Source: Candidatus Poribacteria bacterium | GTDB lineage: Bacteria; Poribacteria; WGA-4E; WGA-3G | NCBI GenBank assembly: GCA_022825825.1 | Contig: JAJDWA010000022.1 | Span: forward strand, 1-64,000 | Direction: 5' to 3' | DNA length: 64,000 nucleotides | Shown here: positions 22,701-23,618 of the stretch, piece by piece | How the letters are laid out: every line of letters starts with the position of its first letter | Position numbering within the stretch: position 1 is the stretch's first letter | The notes under the pieces: generated by a model | What the model was told of the DNA's origin: nothing | What the model saw: only the letters and a program-made list of their open reading frames with translations | Database searches by the model: none | Position numbers and translations under genes: made by a program

Positions 22701-23618
22701 CTATTTTTCCTTTTCAACAACAGAAAACTCACAAATAGCATGTCGAAAAACAACTATCTTAGAGCCGTTTTTCAATACCATTTTGATTTCATACGGACTG
22801 ATCCAGTCAACTGTACCCTGGAAAATTTCGCCTTCACGAAGAATTATTTCAATTGAGCTCCCATCTTTACGAGCATCTCGGACTGTTTCTGCATCAATTG
22901 CATGAACCTCATCTTGAGAGTGTGCAGGTTTGAGTTGCTTTGTTTTAATATCTTCGTTATAGCGAAGAAGTGCCATTACATTTTCTGCGTCAACGTCCTT
23001 ATAACAATACTTCACCTCAGTTTTTGGTACGACTTTTTCCTGACCGTTGCAATTGAGCGTTAATCCAGCCAGTGTCATTTCCAATACAGTAGCAGGCAAT
23101 TGCTCATGGTTATAAAGTGCAAAAAACATCGATGTTTCAAAATTGATTTGCTTGAGAATATAGAGGTCGCCGAAACTTAGCTGTCTGGAAGTTTGTTCCT
23201 TCTCATCTGTGCCAATTTCGGGTTGTGGTGCAGAATCGTCTTTTTGAGATTTTTTTTGCCACCGTTCTTGTGTGTTTTTTGAGTCTGTCCCTGAATTCTC
23301 GTTGTCTGCTTCATCTTCATCAAAAAACTGATCTTGATTTTGGGATGGAAACCCAGAGTAGCCGCGTGGAATAATAGTTTTGCCTTGCCGCAGCCACCGC
23401 CGTTCTGTCGGTGTTAACAACACTTCAACGTTTTTAGCAACTAAACCTTTTTCGCCTTCAACAACGTTATACTTGACTCGTTGTCCAACTCGAAGTTCTT
23501 CGTATTCTGCGTACTTAATCGCGGAATTATGTAGAAAGACATCCTCTTCGCTGCTATCTTGTGCAATAAATCCGAATCCTTTATCCAAATTGTAATACTT
23601 AATTCGTCCTGTAGGCAT
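22701..23618 (-). CDS. Cold-shock domain protein with Hfq/Sm-like C-terminal region(s)
   Basis: N-term CSD GRIKYYNLDKGFGFIAQDSSEEDVFLHNSAI; C-term SIEIILREGEIFQGTVDWISPYEIKMVLKNGSKIVVFRHAICEFSVV resembles Hfq Sm1-Sm2 (YKHA-like motif). Confidence 0.75.
   Translation of the reverse strand: MPTGRIKYYNLDKGFGFIAQDSSEEDVFLHNSAIKYAEYEELRVGQRVKYNVVEGEKGLVAKNVEVLLTPTERRWLRQGKTIIPRGYSGFPSQNQDQFFDEDEADNENSGTDSKNTQERWQKKSQKDDSAPQPEIGTDEKEQTSRQLSFGDLYILKQINFETSMFFALYNHEQLPATVLEMTLAGLTLNCNGQEKVVPKTEVKYCYKDVDAENVMALLRYNEDIKTKQLKPAHSQDEVHAIDAETVRDARKDGSSIEIILREGEIFQGTVDWISPYEIKMVLKNGSKIVVFRHAICEFSVVEKEK

Follow-up and report, generated by a model that had tools for sequence, protein, structure and literature searches.

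Many bacterial phyla seem to lack Hfq by standard annotation. Among the described families closest to the protein reported here, classic Hfq (PF17209, TIGR02383) is a small protein with a single Sm domain, and the Hfq_1-type or cyanobacterial Hfq-related proteins ("mobile Hfq"; PF21979, NF047718) are single-domain as well. Free cold-shock proteins (CspA/CspE, PF00313) are about 70 aa long. The tandem Hfq model NF010691 (PRK14091, 176 aa) appears to hold two Hfq repeats, since its positions 9–85 and 80–165 each match single Hfq-like domains. Genes of the classic hfq clade have miaA/hflX as neighbours (PMC11607428), and zinc-finger-Hfq fusions have been published from archaeal plasmids (PMC3543421). 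Here, we describe a gene in a 64,000-nucleotide stretch of a bacterial genome (the whole stretch analysed, hereafter the window) that encodes, in a single polypeptide, an N-terminal cold-shock domain (CSD) and two consecutive Sm/Hfq-type domains (CSD-Sm-Sm), an architecture maintained by selection across the Poribacteria.

Gene and domain architecture

The CSD-Sm-Sm gene occupies positions 22,701–23,618 on the minus strand, stop codon included, and encodes 305 aa. The open reading frame starts with ATG, with AGGAG about 7 nt upstream, and ends with TAG; a single base separates this stop from the ATG of the next gene (TAG-A-ATG). An Rfam scan revealed no element near the gene, such as a cspA thermoregulator, and a promoter and terminator scan around it gave a result at chance level.

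All domains are given here with their positions on the minus strand. The CSD (residues 3–65; 23,424–23,612) matched PF00313 with an E-value of 2.1e-19 and 69.6 bits, above the Pfam cut-off of 27, and contained both RNP1 (KGFGFI, residues 13–18) and RNP2 (VFLH, residues 27–30), which were invariant among 25 aligned orthologs, confirming the N-terminal CSD proposed in the initial annotation. It is followed by a conserved segment (residues 68–95; 23,334–23,417) with the motif LTPTERRWLRQGK.IIPRGY.GFP, in which 22 of the 28 positions were invariant in the ortholog alignment, and by a variable acidic linker (residues 96–145; 23,184–23,333). The first, diverged Hfq-like domain (Sm-N, residues 149–206; 23,001–23,174) was recognised by AlphaFold2 and profile–profile comparison, and the second (Sm-C, residues 241–301; 22,716–22,898) by Pfam, AlphaFold2, and a profile search. 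Between them, alignment and the AlphaFold2 model placed a connector of about 35 residues (residues 207–240; 22,899–23,000), which bears the family motif K.Q.L.P...R.ERY. Mean column identity was 0.94 in the post-CSD segment, 0.93 in the CSD, 0.88 in Sm-N, and 0.80 in Sm-C, and was lower in the inter-Sm connector (0.60) and the acidic linker (0.44).

Evidence for two Sm/Hfq-type domains

Searched as a single sequence, Sm-C matched PF21979 (Hfq_1) over residues 248–295 with an E-value of 9.3e-5, below the curated cut-off. It also fell short of PF17209 (Hfq; E-value 0.0034, 17.4 bits vs. a cut-off of 27), a cut-off passed by homologous paralogs within the phylum, and the score against TIGR02383 was 15.8 bits vs. 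a cut-off of 61.7. At E ≤ 0.01, a profile of Sm-C built from 28 diverse relatives matched 37 PDB sequences, each of them Hfq or Hfq-like, the best being Staphylococcus aureus Hfq (E-value 2.7e-9). For Sm-N, the single-sequence Pfam scan gave nothing useful and the profile search found no PDB chain; the domain was therefore analysed by profile–profile comparison with shuffled controls. Its profile scored 42.0 against an Hfq profile (P = 2.1e-8), and 100 column shuffles reached at most 18.7. Omission of L114, the Hfq closest to it, lowered the score to 27.7 (P = 4.6e-5), with a shuffle maximum of 16.3 and a score of 10.4 for the reversed profile. The Sm-N and Sm-C profiles scored 27.0 against each other (shuffle maximum 17.0), a similarity consistent with an internal duplication. 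Additionally, the Sm-N of a relative from another phylum itself matched Hfq_1 (E-value 3.3e-5).

The full-length AlphaFold2 model was poor for the CSD and linker (mean pLDDT 55.5), and the tandem part was therefore modelled alone (35 orthologous sequences; mean pLDDT 86.1, pTM 0.82). Counting residue 144 as 1, the first strand set comprised 21–25, 29–39, 42–47, 50–55, and 59–64, and the second, with a helix ahead of it, 112–117, 121–130, 134–139, 144–148, and 152–157; in the full-length model, a helix (residues 149–157) lay ahead of the first set. The Sm topology, a helix and five strands, is thereby predicted to occur twice in the chain. The best 50 Foldseek matches listed from the PDB were all Hfq, with TM-scores of up to 0.89 by target length. 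Matches among predicted viral structures were set aside, as they were mostly poor overall superpositions. Sm-C is plainly Hfq-like by its profile, and for the diverged Sm-N profile and model agree on an Sm domain. The initial annotation had read the C-terminus as the Sm1-Sm2 part of Hfq and an earlier segment as a second, diverged Hfq-like repeat; both readings held, with two Sm folds predicted within residues 140–305 and Hfq as their structural match.

Distribution and gene neighbourhood

The host is a metagenome-assembled genome (MAG) of Candidatus Poribacteria, a sponge-associated lineage, and the whole-protein search was run on GTDB representatives. It returned 34 loci, all from Poribacteria, at 60–92% identity over near full-length alignments, and every one of them kept the CSD-Sm-Sm architecture. 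With the tandem part as query, matches were obtained in 81 of the 87 genomes of the phylum searched, including 55 of the 56 of good quality. The CSD was present at all 30 examined loci of the same family and at 15 of 20 from other families. One of the five loci without it begins at a contig edge, and in the other four a basic or low-complexity N-terminus takes its place. Some distant members have a basic tail and no CSD, so the tandem module can do without the latter. In a range of genomes beyond the phylum, CSD fusions were also present in G276 (CSD E-value 1.6e-14) and G127 (2e-13), both examined genomes of one other phylum, and tandem modules without a CSD were found in G180 and G156 as well as, with a ParB_N-like C-terminus, in G183 and G392. 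No relatives were found in plasmids or in viral contigs.

The gene downstream (22,094–22,699, minus strand), encoding a CxxCxxCC putative zinc/iron-chelating protein, was syntenic in 34 of 34 orthologous loci. With few exceptions among these loci, mtnA and the gene at 24,065–25,354 were present wherever the contig reached, and a ferredoxin gene was located nearby in most of them; the CxxCxxCC and ferredoxin genes recurred in other families. The neighbours are mtnA, amidohydrolase-like, CxxCxxCC, and ferredoxin genes and not the classic miaA/hflX, and the synteny is housekeeping-like. We know of no link of the CxxCxxCC or ferredoxin genes to RNA chaperones. Elsewhere in the window, positions 26,578–27,990 encode a DNA methyltransferase of the type II/III kind (PADLOC MTase_II, E-value 1.6e-62) with an extra C-terminal region.

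Other Hfq and cold-shock proteins

In the genome of the window (5.1 Mb, 84% complete), Hfq-like matches were found at three loci, each of which encodes a tandem protein. A standalone hfq, whose presence the initial annotation had left to be checked, was not found in this genome, the other matches being two further tandem paralogs. Nor was a standalone Csp or any second CSD protein found there, the CSD-Sm-Sm protein containing the sole CSD detected. The same Hfq search detected the controls from Escherichia coli, Bacillus subtilis, Caulobacter, Thermotoga, and Methanocaldococcus jannaschii. Absence from a single genome is limited by the incompleteness of the MAG; the pattern over 60 genomes of the same family is stronger. 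In these, Hfq matches lay in open frames of 156 aa upwards, Hfq_1 matches occurred only in frames of 309–355 aa, and CSDs were found in frames of at least 199 aa; the single exception, of 80 aa, lay at a contig edge. In this bacterium, the CSD-Sm-Sm protein most likely serves as the chief substitute for the missing Hfq of standard type.

More distant families keep Csps of about 70 aa, and single-domain Hfq_1-type proteins occurred in a few of these families (G002, G017). The one in G002 (L114:1955–2242) is 96 aa long and resembles Sm-N in its sequence (KQMREKTKM...YYYK); it possibly gives a picture of the ancestor before the duplication.

Putative RNA-binding residues and proposed function

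Residues were mapped by aligning the Sm-C profile to S. aureus Hfq. Y42, Y56, K57, and H58 of the latter corresponded to Y276, F291, R292, and H293 of Sm-C, with FRHAI where Hfq has YKHAI. Gln8, the uracil-reading residue of Hfq, corresponded to Asp242, and Tyr25 of the distal face to Ile259. Hfq positions 16–17 aligned with R250-K251, of which R250 was invariant and K251 nearly so among the 25 aligned orthologs; in E. coli Hfq, R16-R17 form a rim patch (PMC5379935). Of the YKH triad, Sm-N keeps only K199 (at the Hfq K56 position), the pore His being lost, and members of this genus lack the stacking aromatic as well. Three relatives (L018, L024, and L030) have FRPAV, with P for the pore His, instead of FRHAV. 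To judge by these residues, Sm-C seems able to form a proximal-type site whose specificity has possibly changed, and Sm-N looks altered; given the replacement of Gln8 by Asp242 and of Tyr25 by Ile259, RNA specificity may differ from that of Hfq.

The protein is most likely a post-transcriptional RNA chaperone that replaces Hfq (and Csp), probably as a three-chain pseudo-hexamer with three CSDs. As a general RNA chaperone or riboregulator, it would do the work of Hfq and Csp in one chain. Three chains would form a ring of six Sm domains in which Sm-N and Sm-C alternate, closed through the β4–β5 contacts usual among Sm proteins. In this ring, Y276, R292, and H293 of Sm-C would hold U-rich RNA ends, R250-K251 would act as the rim patch, and Sm-N, with K199 kept and the His lost, would provide altered, alternate pockets. 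Tethered by flexible acidic linkers, the three CSDs would bind single-stranded RNA beside the ring, melt it, and aid annealing. By analogy, stabilisation and annealing would be Hfq-like and melting Csp-like. Taken as a whole, a chaperone or riboregulator with an alternating six-Sm ring, U-rich RNA in Sm-C, and tethered CSDs is the best explanation, and we hold it to be rather more probable than its opposite. The replacements of Gln8 and Tyr25, the residues lost from Sm-N, the FRPAV of three relatives, and the distant members that have no CSD count against it. The earlier idea of a single-chain RNA chaperone or sRNA matchmaker of unusual stoichiometry is reasonable and was not contradicted.

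Alternatively, the Sm pair could mainly be a scaffold for oligomerisation and protein docking, with RNA or DNA bound by the CSD; the protein would then be a multivalent cold-shock protein and no substitute for Hfq. The higher conservation of the CSD (0.93 vs. 0.80–0.88 in the Sm domains), the loss of the Gln8 and Tyr25 equivalents, and the adaptor-like placement of tandem modules in unrelated enzymes, at the C-terminus or close to it, would fit such a role. However, Sm-C retains the proximal-pocket aromatic, the R/K, and the His as well as the basic rim pair, and some paralogs consist of the tandem module without any other recognised domain. We consider a scaffold role rather unlikely, and prefer the RNA chaperone that takes the place of Hfq.

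Paralogs and fused relatives of the tandem module

One of the two paralogs in the genome of the window (L130:6080–9703, contig C50) is a 1208-aa protein with a Sacsin-type N-terminus and the tandem-Sm module at its end, which scored as TmtA in PADLOC (E-value 3.7e-84); an Sm adaptor on a defence effector of this kind would be unusual. The third Hfq-like locus of this genome (L131:4741–5322, contig C44) encodes a stand-alone tandem-Sm protein of 176 aa from the first start codon. In related Poribacteria, GmrSD-type proteins, which are type IV restriction-like, have the Sm module at their end (L117:824–3487, L115:749–3226, and L129:413–3247), and those at L117 and L129 contain a further, C-terminal CSD. 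A single 1344-aa frame (L140:545–4576) comprises a UvrD helicase, a GIY-YIG insertion match, the tandem-Sm module, and S1 domains, and at L123 the module is fused to an RNase H-like domain. In view of these varied fusions, it looks like a general, putative nucleic-acid-binding adaptor. The initial annotation thus needs one correction: what recurs across the phylum is the tandem-Sm module, complete with a conserved connector of its own, which occurs alone or fused to other proteins, many of them defence-like.

The TmtA-scoring paralog and the joining of the module to GmrSD-type endonucleases, to UvrD helicase and S1 domains, and to an RNase H-like domain would also agree with the CSD-Sm-Sm protein being part of an anti-phage or nucleic-acid-quality system and no general riboregulator. 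Defence genes are patchy, whereas the CSD version occurs almost universally and keeps the same neighbours, as expected of a housekeeping gene, and lacks matches in plasmids and viral contigs; a defence role of this protein is therefore improbable. Chance resemblance, a frame error, or a chimeric assembly artefact, for which the Hfq matches of the single sequence below the curated cut-offs might speak, was rejected as having next to no probability, because the same architecture is conserved at all 34 loci, in independent assemblies, and is backed by the structure model and the profile statistics.

Returning to the RNA chaperone, a broader reading is that the phylum replaced Hfq, and one of its families Csp as well, by a CSD-Sm-Sm protein that forms a trimeric, alternating pseudo-hexamer with two kinds of RNA pocket and three tethered CSDs, and that the module was reused as an RNA-sensing anti-phage adaptor in Tiamat-like, GmrSD-like, and UvrD-S1 effectors. 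We offer it tentatively, as a possibility that is the less probable side of the question. The fusions would offer a link between Sm modules and putative anti-phage effectors.

Comparison with known systems

The CSD-Sm-Sm protein resembles classic Hfq in the predicted Sm fold and the basic rim pair, its Sm-C has FRHAI for the YKHAI of the Sm2 motif, and Hfq made up its best 50 structural matches; it differs in having two Sm domains per chain, a fused CSD, Asp for Gln8, and other neighbouring genes. Because the curated cut-offs were not reached and the small single-domain form is replaced by a 305-aa protein with a CSD and two Sm domains, it was not filed as Hfq; it may well function like Hfq. 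Hfq_1 was the best single-domain Pfam match of Sm-C, and the L114 protein, from a distant member of the phylum, resembles Sm-N; unlike the CSD-Sm-Sm protein, Hfq_1-type proteins are single-domain. Scores against the tandem Hfq NF010691 were 12–15 bits (12.2 in the membership test of the CSD-Sm-Sm protein) vs. a cut-off of 270, and NF010691 has neither a CSD nor a matching connector. The LIC_13076 family of Leptospira (NF047624) was weakly matched (E-value 1.5e-4; 21.7 bits vs. a cut-off of 110). This match runs from the end of Sm-N through the connector into Sm-C and may point to a tandem protein that is related. A complete CSD with RNP1 and RNP2 is shared with cold-shock proteins, but heads a much longer chain here than in the free Csps. 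In the zinc-finger-Hfq fusions, a nucleic-acid-binding domain is likewise fused ahead of an Hfq-like domain, but this is a zinc finger instead of a CSD, there is one Hfq domain, and the genes are plasmid-borne.

In the open-access journal papers searched, no report of a CSD-Hfq fusion or of Hfq in Poribacteria was found, and a search of the same scope on tandem Hfq found no description of the CSD-Sm-Sm architecture. Tandem Hfq (NF010691) is apparently already known, as is the zinc-finger-Hfq fusion; the CSD-Sm-Sm combination appears to be new. In a group that apparently lacks hfq, a conserved protein without annotation thus joins the right folds to the second classic domain of RNA chaperones, which makes it a concrete candidate for the riboregulator that is missing. 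The proposed ring would be a natural Sm ring of heteromeric type, made by duplication within bacteria much as the Sm/Lsm rings of archaea and eukaryotes diversified.
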